This document shows positions 4,719-44,900 of a stretch of DNA of 64,000 nucleotides, in pieces. The stretch spans positions 62,001 through 126,000 of the forward strand of contig NZ_JAQTLY010000007.1 of assembly GCF_028714655.1 (NCBI RefSeq), in the 5' to 3' direction. The notes beneath the pieces were generated by a model. That model was not told the DNA's origin, searched no databases, and was given only the letters and a program-made list of their open reading frames with translations. Within the stretch, counting starts at the first letter, position 1. Every line of letters starts with the position of its first letter. This DNA is from Sulfurimonas sp. (GTDB lineage Bacteria; Campylobacterota; Campylobacteria; Campylobacterales; Sulfurimonadaceae). The position numbers were made by a program, and so were the translations under genes.

Positions 4719-7700
4719 ATGAAACAACTTCTCTCAGTTTTAGGCTCCATGAAGACGATGGCTCTCATGATGCTAATTTTTGCTTTTGCTATAGGTTATG
4801 CCACATTCGTAGAGAATGATTACGGTACGATAACCGCAAAAGCAGAGATATATAACGCGCGTTGGTTTGAGATTTTAATCGCACTCTTAACAATTAATTT
4901 AACCATAAATATTTTTAGATATAAAATGTTTAGCGTAAAAAAAGCTCCTATATTTATCTTTCACCTCTCCTTTTTAATTATCGTTTTAGGTGCGGCAATT
5001 ACCCGTTTCGTGGGCTTTGAGGGAACTATGCATATCCGCGAGGGTGAAGTTGCTACAACTATGCTTAGTTCAGATACCTACTTTAGTGTGAGCGCAAAAG
5101 CAGGCGATAAAATCCAAACAAGCCAGAAGAGTGTTTATTTATCTAAAAAAAGCACTAACTCTCTTTCATCATCTCTAAGCGTAGACGGCAAAAATGTACA
5201 TGTAGAACTTGCTGGGTATATTCCTGATGCAATCGAGAGTTTGGTAGAAGCAAAAGAGGGCGGTTTTGAAGTTATTGAGATGATGGTTGCCACAAGCAGT
5301 TCGAGTGAACCTCTTAAACTTAAAAAAGGCGAGTTTTACGAAAATGAAGATATTGCTATAGATTTTGGTTCGCAAAAGATGTTTTTAAGACCTGTTCTCT
5401 CTTTTTTTAGCGAAAACGGTGAGCTTTTTATGAAGCATGAAATACCGCTTAGGTTCTTAAAAATGGAAGATAACGCTCAAGGCGAAATCAATCCGAGTGA
5501 TAAAACTAAAATTGACGGAAAAACTATTTTTGGAACCGACAGCACTAATTTCGCCGTAAGAAAATTCTATCAACATGCAACCGCAAAAATCATCTCAGAC
5601 CCGAATGCTTCACCTATGAAACCTCAGATGGATGCTATGAAGTTTAACATAAAAGTCGGTGATGTCTCAGAAACCGTTATGATTTTCGCTCAAGCAGGAA
5701 GAGCTGCAAAAGAGCATCATAATGTCATAAACGGAGTGGATGTGCATATTTCGTACGGCTCTAAAAAATTGGAAGTTCCATTTGGTGTAAAACTTGTCGA
5801 TTTTCAGATAGATAGATACCCCGGTTCAATGTCTCCTGCATCTTATGCGAGTGAAGTCGAGCTAATCGACAAAGAGAAAAATATTAATATGCCTTATAGA
5901 ATATTTATGAACCATATTTTAGAGCATCGCGGATATAGATTTTTCCAATCTTCTTACGATCAGGACGAAAAAGGAACGATTTTGTCCGTAAACAACGACC
6001 CCGGAACTCTGCCGTCGTATATAGGTTATTTTCTCTTAGGCTTGGGAATGTTTTGGTCGCTTTTTTCTAAAGAAAACAGATTTGCAAAGCTCTCAAGCAT
6101 AGCAAAAAAAGCCAGCCAAGGCAAAGCCGTAGCACTTCTGCTTTCACTTGGGGTTTTATTTAGCGTAACTCCGTCTTATGCGGATGAGCTGGATCCGTCC
6201 ATAAAAACCATTCTCTCTTTTGACAAAGAGCATGCAAATAGATTCGGTCAGTTGATTATTCAAGACAGCAGCGGAAGAATGAAGCCGCTTGATACGCTCT
6301 CGACTGAAATTTTGGCAAAAATCTATAAAAGCCCATACTTAAGTATCGGTGATGAAAAACTAAATGCAAACCAAGTAATACTGGGAATGATGTCTAAGCC
6401 TGATGCGTATAGAGAGCTAAAAATCATCAGAACAAAAAATGAGGAGATAAACAAAATAATAGGCGCAAAATCTGATGCAAAATATGCATCTTTTGCGCAA
6501 TTTTTTGTGGATCCGCAGAGTTTAAACGGCTATAAACTTGCAGAATATGTAGATAATGCAACCAGAAAAGAGCCAAAACACAGAGACCTCTTTGATAAAG
6601 CAGTCTTAGAAATTGATGAGAGAGTAAATATTTCTTACTCGGTATATTCTGGTGCTTTGATAAAAATTTGGCCAAAACCAAATGATGTAAATAATAAATG
6701 GTATCCGACGGTAGAGGCGCTTGAGACATTTTCGCAAGATAACGCTCTAAAGATTAGAGATATCGCTTTTGAATATTTTACGGCACTGGATGGTGCGGTA
6801 AACGGCGGAAACTGGGCAAGTGCAAACTCTGCAATAGAGAAGATAGTCGAATATCAAAAGTTTTACGGTGCACCGGTTTTGCCTTCGGAGACTAGGATAA
6901 AAGCAGAGATGTTTTACAACTATGCAAATATTTTCGAGAGAATTTATCCTATATATTTTTTAATCGGATTTGTGCTTTTAATAGCAAGTTTTGTAAAAAT
7001 ACTAAAACCGAACTTCAATATTTCTATGTTTTCAAAAATATCTTTGGCGCTGCTAGTAACGCTATTTTTAGTGCATACATTCGGTATAGGGCTTAGATGG
7101 TTCGTAGCGGGTCACGCACCGTGGTCTGATGGGTACGAATCTATGATATACATCAGTTGGGCAACGGTTTTAGCCGGTTTTGTGTTCTCAAAACGCTCAT
7201 CTATGACAATGGCTTCAACTGCTGTTCTAACAGGGCTTATTTTGTTTGTGGCGCATCTAAACTGGATGAATCCGCAAGTTACAAACCTTGTACCCGTTCT
7301 TAACTCGTACTGGTTAAGCATACATGTCGCGGTAATTACCGCAAGTTACGGTTTCTTGGGTCTTGGAGCGCTTTTAGGTTTTATTACGATTCTTCTTTTC
7401 ATACTTAAAAATGAGAAAAACGATATGCACATATCTCTCTCCATAAAAGAGTTAAACTCTATAAATGAGATGAGTTTGATGATAGGTTTGGCGTTTTTAA
7501 CGCTAGGAAACTTCTTGGGCGGCGTTTGGGCAAACGAGAGCTGGGGACGATACTGGGGATGGGATCCAAAAGAGACATGGGCGCTTGTAACCATCTTGAT
7601 TTATGCGGTTGTCGTTCACTTGAGATTTATCAAGCAGATTTACAGCGAATTTAACTACAGTGTCATATCACTTTTATCGTATACATCGGTAATTATGACA

Positions 7701-32569: not shown

Positions 32570-32593
32570 TTTAAACCCCTTCTTTTATATTAA

Positions 32594-32750
32594 TTTAAAA
32601 CGCCAAAGGAAGTAATTCCTTCGGCTACGCTTGCCGCTGTGGCACTAAAGCTTGATGCTTAATGCATCAGAAAATTTAAAACGCCAAAGGAAGTAATTCC
32701 TTCGGCTACGCTTGCTGCACGGGTACTAAAGCTTGATGCATTAAGCATCA
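32594..32750. repeat. Tandem pair of about 75-bp palindromic repeats
   Basis: Two direct copies (about 32594-32670 and 32673-32751). Each has TTTAAAACGCCAAAGGAAG, a CCAAAGGAA/TTCCTTCGG palindrome, CGGCTACGCTTGC, then ACTAAAGCTTGATGC and a TGATGC/GCATCA hairpin. The loop of the last hairpin is TTAAT in copy 1 and ATTAA in copy 2. Copy 2 runs into the end of cheW and includes its TAA stop. Confidence 0.75.
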
Positions 32751-33235
32751 GATGTATTATTTTGTATTTGTTCCAAATCTATGATTTCATCGGCTTCAAA
32801 AAGCTTGATAACATCTAAAATCATAACGACACTCTCTCCAATTTGCGCAACTGCCGAGATAAAATCGGTATCGATATAGCTTCCGAATTTTGGCGGTTCG
32901 CTAAGGCTTGCTTTATCGATTGAGGCCACCTCTTCAACCCTGTCTACGATAAAACCGATATTTACTTTTTCGACTTCTATGATAATGATGGCGGTATGCA
33001 TATCTGCCTCTCTGGTCTCCATCGCAAAACGCAGTCTGGTATCCACTACGGGTATGATTGAACCGCGCAGATTGATAACCCCTCTCATAAATTTAGGTAT
33101 CTTAGGCACACCGGTAATCTTCATCATAGCGATAATCTCTTTGATTTGCTCTATAGCAATTCCGTACTGCTCATCTCCTAAAAAAAAGGTGAGATAGCGC
33201 TCCTTTTTGGATTGTGGTAAATGATGGGGTTTCAT
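32741..33235 (-). CDS. cheW: Chemotaxis coupling protein CheW
   Basis: 164 residues with the CheW fold pattern: YLTFFLGDEQYGIAIEQIKEII, VPKIPKFMRGVINLRGSIIPVVDTR-type core, and VGFIVDRVEEV-like stretch (here NIGFIVDRVEEVASI). It bridges receptors to CheA. The last residues and the stop codon are encoded inside repeat copy 2, so the tail may be altered relative to relatives. It starts 2 bp after the cheY-like gene. Confidence 0.93.
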   Translation of the reverse strand: MKPHHLPQSKKERYLTFFLGDEQYGIAIEQIKEIIAMMKITGVPKIPKFMRGVINLRGSIIPVVDTRLRFAMETREADMHTAIIIIEVEKVNIGFIVDRVEEVASIDKASLSEPPKFGSYIDTDFISAVAQIGESVVMILDVIKLFEADEIIDLEQIQNNTSDA

Positions 33236-40378: not shown

Positions 40379-40777
40379 GTGCAGATAAGAGTCTATTACG
40401 AAGATACTGATGCAGGCGGGATAGTTTATCACTCAAATTATCTAAATTTTTGCGAGAGAGCTAGGAGTGAACTGTTTTTTAAAAAAGGACTTTCGCCAGT
40501 TTTAAAAAACGGTCATTTTGTAGCAAAAAAAATAGAAGCAGATTATATCAGCAGTGCAAAGTTGGGTGACGAATTGTATGTAGAAACAGAGCTAATCGGG
40601 ATGAGGGCAGCTTCATTTGAGCTTTTGCAAACTATTTTCAAGGATGAAGGTTCGTCTTTGGGGCATAAGAAGATATTTGAGTTAAAAATATTGCTTGTTT
40701 ATACCACTTTTGACGGCAGACCTCAAAAAATCACGCAAGATGTAAAAGAGCTTCTTTCTCTACTCTTCATCGCTTAA
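40379..40777 (+). CDS. ybgC: Acyl-CoA thioesterase YbgC
   Basis: 132-residue hot-dog-fold thioesterase. The N-terminus VYYEDTDAGGIVYHSNYLNFCERARSE contains the catalytic aspartate and the conserved histidine. The family acts on acyl-CoA or acyl-ACP and is linked to the Tol-Pal and phospholipid context in many proteobacteria. The start is GTG behind GAGGATAATAAA. Its 3' end overlaps the convergent minus-strand gene by 18 bp. Confidence 0.92.
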   Translation: MQIRVYYEDTDAGGIVYHSNYLNFCERARSELFFKKGLSPVLKNGHFVAKKIEADYISSAKLGDELYVETELIGMRAASFELLQTIFKDEGSSLGHKKIFELKILLVYTTFDGRPQKITQDVKELLSLLFIA

Positions 40778-42154
40778 CCCGTATGGGACAAAGCTTGAGA
40801 GAGAAGGCTTTGTCAATACTATAGGGTATATAATCTGGTTATTTTGCATCTCTATATTATACTCCCTATTTTCGCCGCTTATAAGGTGAGTAAAATAGTC
40901 TACGCCGACGGTTGTAGTATAGTTGATCCACTCATAAACTATATCGTTTGATAAAAAAGAGTTTATTTCTATAAGAACATCTTTGTTTTGAGTAATCGAA
41001 TTTGCTATTATCATCTTTTTTCTATCTTGATACTGTGTCATAGATAGCAGCAACGGATTATAGTTTGTTTGGGTAGATAAAACATTCATTGCATTCGTAT
41101 CGTAAAGTGTCAGCTGAGATATAATCATCCCGCTTTTTACTATCGGAGTATTTATAAAAAACGACCCACCGCTTATTCTTGAATTATCATTTAGCTGACT
41201 TTCCAGATTTGTTACTTTCTGAGGAATAGAGTATTTTATGACGGTCGGATTTCTGCCCTCTGAATTTTTATTTTTAAACGCAGATTCCTGATAGCCGGAG
41301 AGTTGTTTGCCTATTTCGGATTCGTCATAAAATATAACAAGCGGTGATGCTGATTTGCTTAGAAGCAGATCGCTTTGTGCGCGATAGTCAATTCCGCCGT
41401 AGTAGAAAAATTTAGAGTTAGAATGAGCGTCTTTTTTATTGATGGTAGGGAAAAATATATTGATTTGAGGATTGATTTGTGAGATTACACTCTCACCGTC
41501 TTGAGTTAACGGAGCTATAATATAATTGAAACCGTCTTCTTGAATTTTTTTAACCGCACTAGATATCTCTTTGTTGCTTTCATCTTCTATTTTATAGCTT
41601 TTTAGCTCAAAAGGGGATTTTTTCGACATTAAATACGCAAATGAAGCGTTTGTCGTAGATGCTGCATATCTGGTAATTTTTTTATACGGAAGAAGCAAGG
41701 CGATACGAATCTTTTCTTGAGAAGTTATTTTAGAGACAGGTTGATAAGTGGCTTCATAAGCAGCTTCGGAAGATGCTTGAGAAGATGCTTGAGAAGATGC
41801 TTGAGAAGATGCTTGAGAAGATGCTTGAGAAGATGCTTGAGAAGATGCTTGAGAAGATGCTCGAGAAGATGACTGCGAAGCAACCTGAGCAGTGGCAGTC
41901 TGTTTGACATTAAACATAGCCAAATACTTATCTTTCAATTTTCCTATTTCTACATCTTGAAACTTAGTATCGGTATTAGATAAAAATGAGAATAAAAAAC
42001 CTTCTTTAAGGTATTTTTGCATGCATTTTTCATTACACGCAAAAGGGTCTAAATTGAGTACGGCTATTTTTGGGAGGGGTACGCTTGAAATCAAATAACT
42101 CTTTGCAAATAGAGAAATCGGAAATAGCAACGCTAAAAAATATAGTTTTTTCAT
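40760..42154 (-). CDS. Exported periplasmic-binding-fold protein with SSQA tandem repeat
   Basis: 464 residues. A signal peptide (MKKLYFLALLFPISLFA) is followed by a conserved N-terminal part, a low-complexity SSQA repeat (about residues 97-129) and a C-terminal region with IRIALLLPYKKITRYA and FNYIIAPLTQDG, which resembles type 1 periplasmic-binding or LpoA/LppC-like folds. Function unknown; a role in cell-wall synthesis control is only a guess from fold. The ATG at 42154 overlaps the previous stop (ATGA), so the TTG two codons upstream is rejected. Confidence 0.75.
   Translation of the reverse strand: MKKLYFLALLFPISLFAKSYLISSVPLPKIAVLNLDPFACNEKCMQKYLKEGFLFSFLSNTDTKFQDVEIGKLKDKYLAMFNVKQTATAQVASQSSSRASSQASSQASSQASSQASSQASSQASSQASSEAAYEATYQPVSKITSQEKIRIALLLPYKKITRYAASTTNASFAYLMSKKSPFELKSYKIEDESNKEISSAVKKIQEDGFNYIIAPLTQDGESVISQINPQINIFFPTINKKDAHSNSKFFYYGGIDYRAQSDLLLSKSASPLVIFYDESEIGKQLSGYQESAFKNKNSEGRNPTVIKYSIPQKVTNLESQLNDNSRISGGSFFINTPIVKSGMIISQLTLYDTNAMNVLSTQTNYNPLLLSMTQYQDRKKMIIANSITQNKDVLIEINSFLSNDIVYEWINYTTTVGVDYFTHLISGENREYNIEMQNNQIIYPIVLTKPSLSSFVPYGLSDEE
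41769..41864 (-). repeat. 12-bp tandem repeat coding (SSQA)n
   Basis: Seven perfect copies of GAAGATGCTTGA (41769-41852) and an eighth with one change (41853-41864), followed by a degenerate unit. In-frame, so copy-number change would alter linker length without a frameshift. Confidence 0.92.
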
Positions 42155-42807
42155 ATACAACTCTTTATAGTTTTTAAATCATTAAATGTTACTTTTTTAT
42201 CATCGGGATTTCTAAGCAGATGATTTGGATGATAAATCGGTATCAGCTTATAATCTTTAAAACTCACGACATGTCCTCTTACGCTTTGAAAATTTTCATT
42301 TTCTGCCGTAACTTTAGCATAAGCTTCTTTACCTAAGGTAACAACTACTTTTGGTTTTACAAACTCTATCTGCGAAAATAGATAATTTTTGCAAGAATCC
42401 CACTCAGAACTTGACGGTGTGTTCGAGTTTAAAGGTTTGCATTTGACAGCATGTGTAAAATATATATCTTCAATCTTTAGACCTAAAACATTCTCTATCA
42501 TACTTTTTAGCATTTCACCGCTTCTGCCGCAGTAGTATGAGTTTGTACTGTCTTCACTTAGCGAAACTGTGTAGTCGATTATCATAACATCTGCATTTGG
42601 ATTTCCGTAACCGCTCATACTTTGAGACCTTGATTTGCTAAGGTCGCATAGGTGACAGGTGGATATATCTCGTTTTATTTCATCAAGATTATGAGGTTTT
42701 TCATTTGAACTTTTTTGATTTACAGAGAACGAATCACTATATTCAAAACCGAGAGCTTTTAATCTATAAAGATTTTGAAGAAGAATCAGGTTCTGAAAAG
42801 AGTCCAA
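42151..42807 (-). CDS. Uracil-DNA glycosylase family protein (type 4/5-like), divergent
   Basis: 218 residues. Four cysteines of an iron-sulfur cluster are present: C51 and C54 in STCHLCDLS, then VKCKPLN and DSCKNYL. Motif B is intact (PIYHPNHLLRNP). The usual motif A, GEAPGxxED, is replaced by IDYTVSLSED, so uracil excision may be weakened or changed. I choose a TTG at 42807 because TAAGG lies six bases upstream, while the longer frame runs into an att-like repeat. The gene overlaps the next one by 4 bp. Confidence 0.8.
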   Translation of the reverse strand: MDSFQNLILLQNLYRLKALGFEYSDSFSVNQKSSNEKPHNLDEIKRDISTCHLCDLSKSRSQSMSGYGNPNADVMIIDYTVSLSEDSTNSYYCGRSGEMLKSMIENVLGLKIEDIYFTHAVKCKPLNSNTPSSSEWDSCKNYLFSQIEFVKPKVVVTLGKEAYAKVTAENENFQSVRGHVVSFKDYKLIPIYHPNHLLRNPDDKKVTFNDLKTIKSCI

Positions 42808-42842: not shown

Positions 42843-42860
42843 TATATTTAAAGTGTGGTT
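42843..42860. repeat. Left 18-bp direct repeat of the island (attL-like)
   Basis: TATATTTAAAGTGTGGTT, identical and in the same orientation to 44883-44900. It lies 35 bp upstream of the uracil-DNA glycosylase start. Confidence 0.7.
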
Positions 42861-43101
42861 GATATTGGCTTAAAGTTTTGCAGTAGATTTGCAATAAAAC
42901 AAGGAAAAATAGCACCTCTATAAATCTGTTTTCTTAACAGGTAGTAGTTATATCGAAAATTTTAATTATTTGAAAGATAGCTAACAAAACATAGAAAATT
43001 ACGCCCCTGAAAAACAAATCTCCACTATTTAAAACTTAAATGCATCTCCATTTACCTATTTTTCACTTCTAAAAAATATAAAATATTTTCTATAAAAATT
43101 T

Positions 43102-43115
43102 AAAAAATCGTAACA
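43102..43115 (+). promoter_or_regulatory. Upstream copy of island operator-like repeat
   Basis: AAAAAATCGTAACA, followed by TAAATTTG. The second copy at 43217-43230 is followed by CTTATTTG. The two are 115 bp apart and occur only here among sequences I inspected. Confidence 0.4.
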
Positions 43116-43207
43116 TAAATTTGTATAATATATATAAATAATATACAGTATAATTGTCATAATATAGGTAGATAAGGCAGTAATATACATTTAAAATATT
43201 TTTTTGC

Positions 43208-43230
43208 TATAATAACAAAAAATCGTAACA
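43208..43230 (+). promoter_or_regulatory. Promoter -10 and operator-like repeat of the island operon
   Basis: TATAAT at 43208-43213 is followed directly by AAAAAATCGTAACA at 43217-43230, which would cover the transcription start. The N-terminal winged helix of the first gene is a candidate to bind it. Inference only. Confidence 0.45.
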
Positions 43231-43259
43231 CTTATTTGCAAATATAAAGGCTCATACAA

Positions 43260-43880
43260 GTGACAAAATCAGAACAAATTAAAAAATTTATAAAAAAGCT
43301 CCCTTTACATGAGGATTTTACTTTTAAATATGTTCGTGAAAATTTACCTGATTTCTCTACTGACATTATACGAGTCAATCTTCATAGACTTCATGATAAT
43401 GGAACAATAACTATTAAGGACAAGGGTACTTTTTCTCGAGAGGATGAATACTTTGAGGTCTATCTTTTTGTCTATGGAACGCTAAAAAAAGGATTTGAGA
43501 ATGAACATTTTCTTAATAAAGCTAAATATATTTCAAAAGCATCCACTGTTAGAAAGTTCGCAATGTACACAGCAAAGGGAGGAGAATATCCATATCTATT
43601 AAAAGATAAACCTTTACATAATATAGAAGGTGAGCTATACAAAATTGCACGAAGAGATTTATTAAAAAAAATAGATCTCTTTGAGGGAAGTCCTGACTAC
43701 TATACTCGAGAGTCGATAGAAGTTAAGAGTAGAAGTTTCGATACCAATAAAAGAGCATTTACTTATTTTTATGTGAATAAAAAAGAGCATAAAAAGAAAG
43801 AACCCATTACGGAGTGGAAAAAGCCGAAGCTCTTTGATATGGATGCTTATCATAAGTTAATTATGGACAGAGATATTTAA
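43260..43880 (+). CDS. Winged-helix / gamma-glutamylcyclotransferase (AIG2-like) fusion protein
   Basis: 206 residues. About 1-62 looks like a winged helix (LPLHEDFTFKYVRENL, VNLHRLHDNGTITI). About 66-170 is an AIG2/GGCT-like domain: VYGTLKKG (Y72-L75), GEYPYLL, GELYKI and IDLFEGSPDYYTR with E142 as candidate catalytic acid. The family releases 5-oxoproline from gamma-glutamyl amines. The basic tail is about 30 residues. The start is GTG after AAAGG. It overlaps the amidoligase ATG by one base, so the pair is co-translated. It is inferred to undo or complete a gamma-glutamyl linkage made by its partner. Confidence 0.8.
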   Translation: MTKSEQIKKFIKKLPLHEDFTFKYVRENLPDFSTDIIRVNLHRLHDNGTITIKDKGTFSREDEYFEVYLFVYGTLKKGFENEHFLNKAKYISKASTVRKFAMYTAKGGEYPYLLKDKPLHNIEGELYKIARRDLLKKIDLFEGSPDYYTRESIEVKSRSFDTNKRAFTYFYVNKKEHKKKEPITEWKKPKLFDMDAYHKLIMDRDI

Positions 43881-44617
43881 TGGCATATAGCGACTTAAAG
43901 TTTGGCTGTGAATTTGAATTTTATCCGAATGGAATGATAGAAGATGAAATAATTGATGCTCTTAAGGATATTCTAAAAGAAGGAATTGAGCTAAAGAAAA
44001 ACCTCCAAAGTAATGATGACAATAATATGAACTATAAAAATGAACCATCCCTAAGTGCTATGGGAGGTAAAGAGATTACTACACCTATTTGTACATATGA
44101 AGATTTAAAACAATATATTAGTAAAATCGCAAAAATCATTGATCAAAATGGCTCAACAGATGAAAATACAGGATTTCATATTCATATTTCAACCATCGAT
44201 GAAAATATAGAAGTAGATTTTTATAAATTTATGCTCTTGTGCAGTGAAGCTTCACTGCTTCACAATTGGGGAGATAGAAATGCTTTTTGCTTAAATGTTA
44301 TGGATGTGTTGACTGTTCTTAATATAAAAGAAGCAAACAAACTTAAGAGCAAAAAGGGAAGAGTTTGGAATCTCGAGAAAAGAAGAGAGCATAACAAAAC
44401 AAATCATGTTGAAATACGAACAATAGGCGGTACAAATTATCAACGAAAAGTTGAACAAATATTAAGTGAGCTTAATCAATTTATTGAGATATTTAATCGC
44501 TCTATCAAAAATCAAAATAGAGATGAAGCATACAAATCTATTTTGCAAGAACATATGGAAATTTTAAAATCTGCTTCAGAAGAGAGAAAAGAAAAGTTTT
44601 TACAACTTATTAGGTGA
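43880..44617 (+). CDS. Amidoligase (COOH-NH2 ligase, glutamine-synthetase-like fold)
   Basis: 245 residues, matching the Amidoligase_2 pattern: G9CEFEFY with E11 and E13, EPSLS then GGKEITTP (E65), TGFHIHIS (H100, H102) and NHVEIRTIGG (E177, R179). These residues bind ATP-Mg and activate a carboxylate in the glutamine synthetase/GCS superfamily. The substrate is unknown; a glutamyl or peptide carboxylate is typical. It ends at TGA 44615-44617, beyond which the same frame continues as an integrase remnant, so the C-terminus may be trimmed. Partner of the AIG2-like gene. Confidence 0.82.
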   Translation: MAYSDLKFGCEFEFYPNGMIEDEIIDALKDILKEGIELKKNLQSNDDNNMNYKNEPSLSAMGGKEITTPICTYEDLKQYISKIAKIIDQNGSTDENTGFHIHISTIDENIEVDFYKFMLLCSEASLLHNWGDRNAFCLNVMDVLTVLNIKEANKLKSKKGRVWNLEKRREHNKTNHVEIRTIGGTNYQRKVEQILSELNQFIEIFNRSIKNQNRDEAYKSILQEHMEILKSASEERKEKFLQLIR

Positions 44618-44863
44618 TATTCGTATTATAAAAGTATTTTAATGAAGCTAAATATTGAAACAAGAACATTGCACAATACCAGACATACTTTTGCAAGCAT
44701 GATGTTAAATAATGGAATAGACCCAATGTGGGTATCAAATACTTTAGGTCATGAGAACCTAGATATTACACTCAGAGTTTATGCACATTTTATGCCTAAA
44801 AAAGAAAAAATGGTCATAGGCTTTTTAGAAAAGCGGTACAAAAACGGTACAAGCTACATCTAA
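44618..44863 (+). pseudogene. C-terminal relic of a phage-type tyrosine recombinase
   Basis: About 81 codons, open from directly after the amidoligase stop; the first ATG is at 44642. It has HNTRHTFASMML (the HxxR motif), WVSNTLGHENLD (the second histidine) and RVYAHF with the nucleophile tyrosine. The N-terminal DNA-binding part and the first catalytic arginine are missing. The end is 19 bp from the right 18-bp direct repeat, the usual position of an integrase next to its att site. It is inferred to be what is left of the enzyme that inserted the island. Confidence 0.85.
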
Positions 44864-44882
44864 CCTCCCTGTATAGGAACCA

Positions 44883-44900
44883 TATATTTAAAGTGTGGTT
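44883..44900. repeat. Right 18-bp direct repeat of the island (attR-like)
   Basis: TATATTTAAAGTGTGGTT, an exact copy of 42843-42860. It occupies the expected -35 zone of the downstream GH17 gene, whose TAAAAT -10 is at 44919-44924. Confidence 0.7.

Follow-up and report, generated by a model that had tools for sequence, protein, structure and literature searches.

The window analysed here is a 64,000-nucleotide stretch of a Sulfurimonas sp. draft genome (contig NZ_JAQTLY010000007.1, positions 62,001 to 126,000), in which the segment at 42843-44900 holds two overlapping genes, the 3′ end of a third and a pair of direct repeats. The first gene (43260..43880, GTG start) encodes a 206-aa protein predicted to join a winged helix to a GGACT-type cyclotransferase domain, and the second (43880..44617) encodes a 245-aa predicted amidoligase of the glutamine-synthetase fold. 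Together with the promoter/operator region upstream, the two genes form a cargo cassette (43077..44617), which is followed by the 3′-end remnant of an integrase gene (44627..44882, with a 73-aa ORF at 44642-44863). The segment is bounded by 18-bp att repeats at 42843..42860 and 44883..44900, and the left repeat is followed by the left end of the integrated element (42861..42936). All of these features are given on the forward strand except the left end, which has no strand assigned. Repeats of other kinds occur elsewhere in the window: 8.6 copies of the 12-bp unit GAAGATGCTTGA at 41769-41871, encoding ASSQ repeats within a 466-aa ORF (40760-42160), and two tandem copies of an 81-bp unit at 32592-32752.

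The two att repeats, TATATTTAAAGTGTGGTT, are identical and have no other exact copy in the 2.19-Mb draft genome. At the corresponding site of a relative (G021:C14:16368-16397, AGTATATTTAAAGTGTGGTTAAAATTTACT), a single copy of the repeat is present and the left and right flanks of the segment are exactly joined, the right flank running on past 44900 as it does there. This empty site lies between a uracil-DNA glycosylase gene and the next gene (L031 ~5367-5396), and the same site is also empty in L099, L101, L102, L106 and L107. In addition, related elements occupy the site in G499 (L097) and G493 (L098), with DNA identities to window positions 42843-42936 of 100% and 94%, respectively. Both marks of an integrative element, att sites in direct repeat and relatives with an empty attB, were found, and at the sequence level 42843-44900 is confirmed as an integrated element in Sulfurimonas, of the tyrosine-recombinase kind. 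The first-pass annotation had described the exact 18-bp repeat, proposed mobility through it as an att-like repeat and predicted an empty site with one copy, and each of these points holds. The contrary case, relatives in which the pair is stably resident here and lacks repeats, was sought and not found; in relatives the locus is either empty or holds a related integrase element with other cargo. A tRNA as the integration target of the window element is ruled out, as the window contains no tRNA.

Of 135 Sulfurimonas genomes, 72 keep the attB 30-mer, AGTATATTTAAANNGTGGTTAAAATNTACT, almost always once per genome, and it lies directly upstream of a family-4 uracil-DNA glycosylase gene at every locus inspected. 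It has a palindrome-like 12-6-12 layout, occurs once in most matching genomes and lies close to mid-chromosome in most single-contig genomes, and was therefore suspected to be the chromosome dimer-resolution site (dif). This identity is ruled out: the canonical dif occurs once as a distinct site, where the GC skew switches or close to it, 133 kb from attB in G012 and 115 kb in G009. Where both sites are on one contig, they are 17-250 kb apart in most genomes, with attB mostly oriented towards dif. A copy of the att repeat with two mismatches is found on contig C4 of G000 (141627-141644; L003 ~1496-1521), where it is part of the perfect inverted repeat AATATTTAAA-CTACAC-TTTAAATATT directly upstream of an AAA-type-ATPase-like gene. 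In G021 (L031), G488 (L096) and G499 (L097), the att site and the GH17 gene are separated by a GGDEF-EAL-like gene, which is missing from the window genome and G493 (L098).

The 73-aa ORF matches the PF00589 integrase profile (E 6.8e-11) at profile positions 122-168 of 172, and the remnant is 94-96% identical in DNA to the full-length integrase genes of G493 (L098) and G488 (L096). The window copy thus retains the last 73 amino acids of a gene that is complete in those two relatives. In G493, an 8.9-kb element lies between the same repeats at the same chromosomal site (L098 3645-12517). Its genes include one for a 93-aa helix-turn-helix (xis-like) protein and one for a 359-aa integrase, the C-terminus of which is almost identical to the window fragment. 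The same integrase and xis-like genes are present in G488, at a contig end, and in G499 a remnant of 1.2 kb is left, its integrase broken. Because an integrase fragment is found here and a full-length sister element is found at the same site, the segment is an integrase-truncated derivative of a larger element. This revises the first-pass view of a pair that sits alone in a "mini-element": the truncated recombinase C-terminus is there as well, and the term overstates as a natural unit what has been shortened from a larger element by truncation of its integrase gene. Homology to the integrase starts at 44627, ten bases past the amidoligase stop, and homology to the cassette of Sulfurimonas sp. 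STC_53, the closest named relative, spans 43077-44613. We infer that the cassette displaced the xis gene and the larger part of the integrase, and that self-excision was thereby lost; with its integrase cut to the last 73 codons, the window copy would be unable to move by itself.

The sister elements also bear on the history and cargo of this family. The window and G499 elements are 100% identical over their first 94 bases and 95.7% identical over the integrase remnant, whereas the flanking chromosomal genes have only 81% and 76% identity. With element ends 96-100% identical and chromosomal flanks just 76-81% identical, the comparison shows horizontal transfer of the element between lineages after their divergence. 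Among the genes of the G493 element are those for a retron type II-A reverse transcriptase (E 1.9e-100), its NDT partner (E 2.5e-24) and the candidate defence protein PDC-S21 (E 4.5e-102). With this cargo, the element family bears anti-phage genes at least once. Two further large proteins of the G493 element (376 and 438 aa) have no PADLOC or Pfam match and are possible defence cargo.

The first protein of the window pair is laid out as a winged helix (residues 1-62) followed by a GGACT domain (residues 69-187; PF06094, E 2.5e-25). The closest solved relatives of the latter are mouse and human gamma-glutamylamine cyclotransferase (GGACT), an enzyme whose catalytic site comprises Y7, G8, T9, L10, I50, E82, Y88, Y115 and Y143 (PMC2954230). 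In the alignment, clear counterparts are Y72, G73, T74 and L75 for Y7-L10, E142 for E82 and Y148 for Y88, and the residue opposite E142 is E in 3jub and Q in 3jud. Among 11 homologues none of these residues varies, save for T/S at 74, and all 11 match PF06094 with the catalytic Y-G-[TS]-L, Glu and Tyr present. The domain is, by its sequence, a GGACT-type cyclotransferase with catalytic residues intact. The N-terminal region, common to 11 of 11 homologues, is predicted to form helices at 3-12, 22-28 and 34-46 and strands at 50-54 and 57-60, as in a winged helix. Structure models of both proteins were built on three sequences, and the GGACT half of the first model is of low confidence; over residues 1-50 the pLDDT is about 64-77. 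The winged-helix model matches solved winged helices with Z up to 10.2, including that of DpnI (Z 10.0, 1.6 A over 60 residues), and residues 1-62 are thus predicted to be a winged helix fused to the cyclotransferase. In a comparison with one AbiEi antitoxin sequence, no convincing relation was found (hhalign probability 0.4).

The second protein matches Amidoligase_2 (PF12224) above the curated cut-off (25.8 bits against 22; E 1.2e-5) over residues 58-108 only, a stretch of 51 residues, and the profile is matched in just 3 of 10 members (E 0.01). A sequence search found no solved relative. In structure comparisons, the best 50 matches of its model are all glutamine synthetase or GmaS chains, and against the glutamine-synthetase family the model, itself of modest confidence (pLDDT 60.7), reaches Z 8.0-9.3 over 157-186 aligned residues at 10-17% identity. 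An E-x-E strand (E11, E13) and a G-x-H-x-H-x-S motif (H100, H102) are kept among homologues with minor changes, E11/E13 and H100/H102 being invariant. These motifs are also those of glutamine synthetase. There is modest support from the model for a glutamine-synthetase catalytic fold in this ligase, and the evidence from the fold is better than that from the profile. The one-base overlap of the genes, the two family assignments (AIG2 and amidoligase) and the fused winged helix had all been put forward in the first-pass annotation, and coordinates, profiles and model, respectively, bear them out.

The two genes also travel together. Across 1548 alignment columns the cassette has 75% DNA identity to that of STC_53 (L030 4195-5728), which lies at a different locus, and the encoded proteins are 80% and 69% identical. 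The pair is found in the same gene order in STC_53, G026, G085, G316, G422, G154, G285, two Aliarcobacter butzleri plasmids and the viral contig L040, so that, as judged by homology, the two genes recur together in Campylobacterota islands, on plasmids and on a Mu-like viral contig. In the phage and plasmid collections, the Aliarcobacter butzleri plasmids are the only close relatives of the fused form; the ligase has a single weak match in a huge phage, and 108 phage records match the cyclotransferase part only. The distance matrices of the two proteins are correlated (r 0.95, 0 of 5000 permutations; 0.89 minus the window and its nearest relative), indicating that the genes are co-inherited. 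All ten complete ligases found adjoin an intact winged-helix eraser. Decayed pairs occur in G019, where an IS21-type insertion interrupts the ligase gene, in G241, where the eraser lacks a start codon and the ligase is gone, and in G404, where the ligase lacks its N-terminus. Such decay, together with the truncated integrase, could suggest that the window element is a relic without present function. We consider this very unlikely, as both window genes are intact, their catalytic residues are kept and the proteins have 80% and 69% identity to those of STC_53.

The promoter region suggests how the pair may be controlled. In 8 of 11 upstream regions, an inverted repeat, ATCGTGACA-N25/26-TGTCACGAT, spans the promoter with 0-2 mismatches in all, and a repeat as good was found in 0 of 500 shuffles per sequence; a -10-like box lies between its halves. 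G026 has the downstream half only. In the window, the best inverted pair does not surpass shuffled sequence; instead, the window and STC_53 each carry AAAAAATCGTAACAC(T)NATTTG twice in direct orientation, at a spacing of 114-115 bp, with the second copy directly downstream of TATAAT. In the window, the putative operator copies are AAAAAATCGTAACATAAATTTG (43102..43123) and AAAAAATCGTAACACTTATTTG (43217..43238), in the same two-copy layout as in L030, and the putative -10 box TATAAT is at 43208..43213, the homologues having the same GCTATAAT within the inverted repeat. The second copy includes the half-site TCGTRACA common to the homologues' inverted repeat, and the window and its closest relative bear a diverged direct-repeat version of the putative operator. 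Because this half-site adjoins the promoter of a gene whose product starts with a winged helix, autorepression is the natural reading, and the winged helix likely represses its own operon. Self-regulation had been proposed as likely from the fusion itself, and the operator-like repeats at the promoter of the pair are consistent with it.

The neighbours of the pair differ among genomes. G316 and G422 share its position, on the downstream side of a tRNA-Ser/Cys/Leu/Gly cluster, with differing defence genes adjoining: AbiE and PDC-M33 in the former, and Vsr, a cytosine methylase and an SNF2 helicase in the latter. TIR and HNH proteins are near the pair in G154, an AbiEii toxin in G019, and prophage repressor and transposase genes in the viral contig L040. 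The neighbours seen are an indication, and only that, that the pair often sits beside defence genes. In G085 (L059 9404-13608), the pair adjoins two large genes, one for a PLD-like protein that weakly matches ZacB and one for a 513-aa protein without a match, which possibly form an undescribed system.

Other contexts point elsewhere. In STC_53 the pair is within a polysaccharide locus, and in the Mu-like viral contig L040 it is next to the prophage repressor/transposase end. Amidoligase-GGCT pairs are, in addition, known from phages and prophages, and a surface role for the amidoligases of phage phiEco32 was proposed by Iyer et al. 2009, as reported in PMC11318856 and PMC11253131. Accordingly, the ligase might add a peptide or an amine to the cell wall or a surface polymer, and the cyclotransferase would trim this modification, with adsorption of other phages being blocked. 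We regard this as rather unlikely, given that the island copies are without surface-polymer genes, that inspection revealed a signal peptide in neither protein, and that an eraser joined to a DNA-binding domain fits dosage control better than a biosynthetic step. The pair could also be a metabolic module that forms and breaks gamma-glutamyl amines (polyamines or alkylamines) in the manner of PuuA/GmaS-type ligases, with the winged helix sensing the amine. The glutamine-synthetase fold, the GmaS chains among the structure matches and the GGACT type of the eraser agree with such chemistry; the lack of an amine transporter or oxidase nearby, the patchy distribution (10 of 399 genomes) and the mobile and defence contexts make it distinctly improbable.

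The reading we favour, which we hold with about even confidence, is that the element is an integrase-truncated carrier of a single cargo, a self-regulated writer-eraser pair likely to serve in conflict with phages or mobile elements. The ligase would use ATP to link the gamma-carboxylate of glutamate to an amine on its target, and the GGACT domain would take the glutamyl tag off as 5-oxoproline; the conserved catalytic residues of both proteins fit a pair able to make and remove a gamma-glutamyl tag. The winged helix would dimerise on the operator and repress the operon, and the eraser would therefore also set the level of the writer. Because relatives of the same mobile element bear anti-virus genes, the pair probably belongs to conflict between bacteria and their parasites. 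We count against this the polysaccharide locus of STC_53, the direct-copy operator of the window, the single operator half of G026, the short Amidoligase_2 match present in so few members, the AbiEi comparison, and the three-sequence basis of the models together with the low confidence of the GGACT half. In the simplest conflict role, the ligase would be a harmful effector and the winged-helix eraser its neutraliser, which is the weakest step of the proposal. A toxin-antitoxin-like role is plausible. The gene order, with the regulator first, and the putative operator would fit that layout, with the operator of the window differing from that of other members. It is an attractive reading because the eraser would be the regulator too and a complete ligase was never found without it. 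Its specific form, a system of this type with new chemistry, is possible, if doubtful: the ligase would act as a poison of the cell or an invading phage through gamma-glutamylation of an essential target that bears an amine, tag removal and repression of the operon would both fall to the fused protein, and depletion of the eraser would turn expression on and end protection simultaneously.

In DarTG-type toxin-antitoxin systems, the antitoxin enzymatically reverses the modification made by the toxin. By analogy, the window pair would resemble them as two coupled genes on mobile DNA that possibly write and erase a modification, although the chemistry differs. Closer in chemistry is butirosin biosynthesis, an antibiotic pathway in which the ATP-grasp ligase BtrJ adds a gamma-glutamyl group and the GGCT-fold enzyme BtrG removes it; adding and removing this group is what the window pair would share with a system that has no winged helix. 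Human and mouse GGACT (A2LD1; PDB 3jub, 3juc, 3jud, 1vkb, 2kl2) are the best solved relatives of the eraser and have the Y-G-T-L, E82 and Y88 positions in common with it, but possess neither a DNA-binding domain nor a coupled ligase gene. Similarly, the ligase is modelled with the catalytic fold of glutamine synthetase and GmaS, but is about half their length, at 10-17% identity.

Amidoligases and AIG2/GGCT proteins have been described together on mobile DNA, in C. difficile Tn6164 (PMC3485107), Arthrobacter cluster AL phages (PMC5513430) and C. clostridioforme and Terrisporobacter prophages (PMC11318856, PMC11253131), and LUZ24-like phages encode the same enzyme families (PMC3890496). In these phage and island pairs, the ligase and cyclotransferase are likewise adjacent or near one another, but the cyclotransferases are described as stand-alone proteins, whereas here the domain is fused to a predicted winged helix, its gene opens the operon and a conserved putative operator precedes it. 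Neither the winged-helix fusion nor its operator was found described in the literature and collections searched, in keeping with the initial suggestion that neighbourhoods of these families are known and the fused regulator form perhaps not. While amidoligase-GGCT pairs are already known, the eraser fused to a predicted DNA-binding domain, with its putative operator, is a new form of them. Ligase-cyclotransferase pairs have been reported on phages and islands for more than a decade, with roles so far only proposed. The variant described here is compact, two-gene and probably self-regulated; its operator is predicted, its catalytic residues can be named and relatives of its element carry known anti-phage systems, and it therefore makes a role for reversible gamma-glutamylation in bacterial conflict directly testable.
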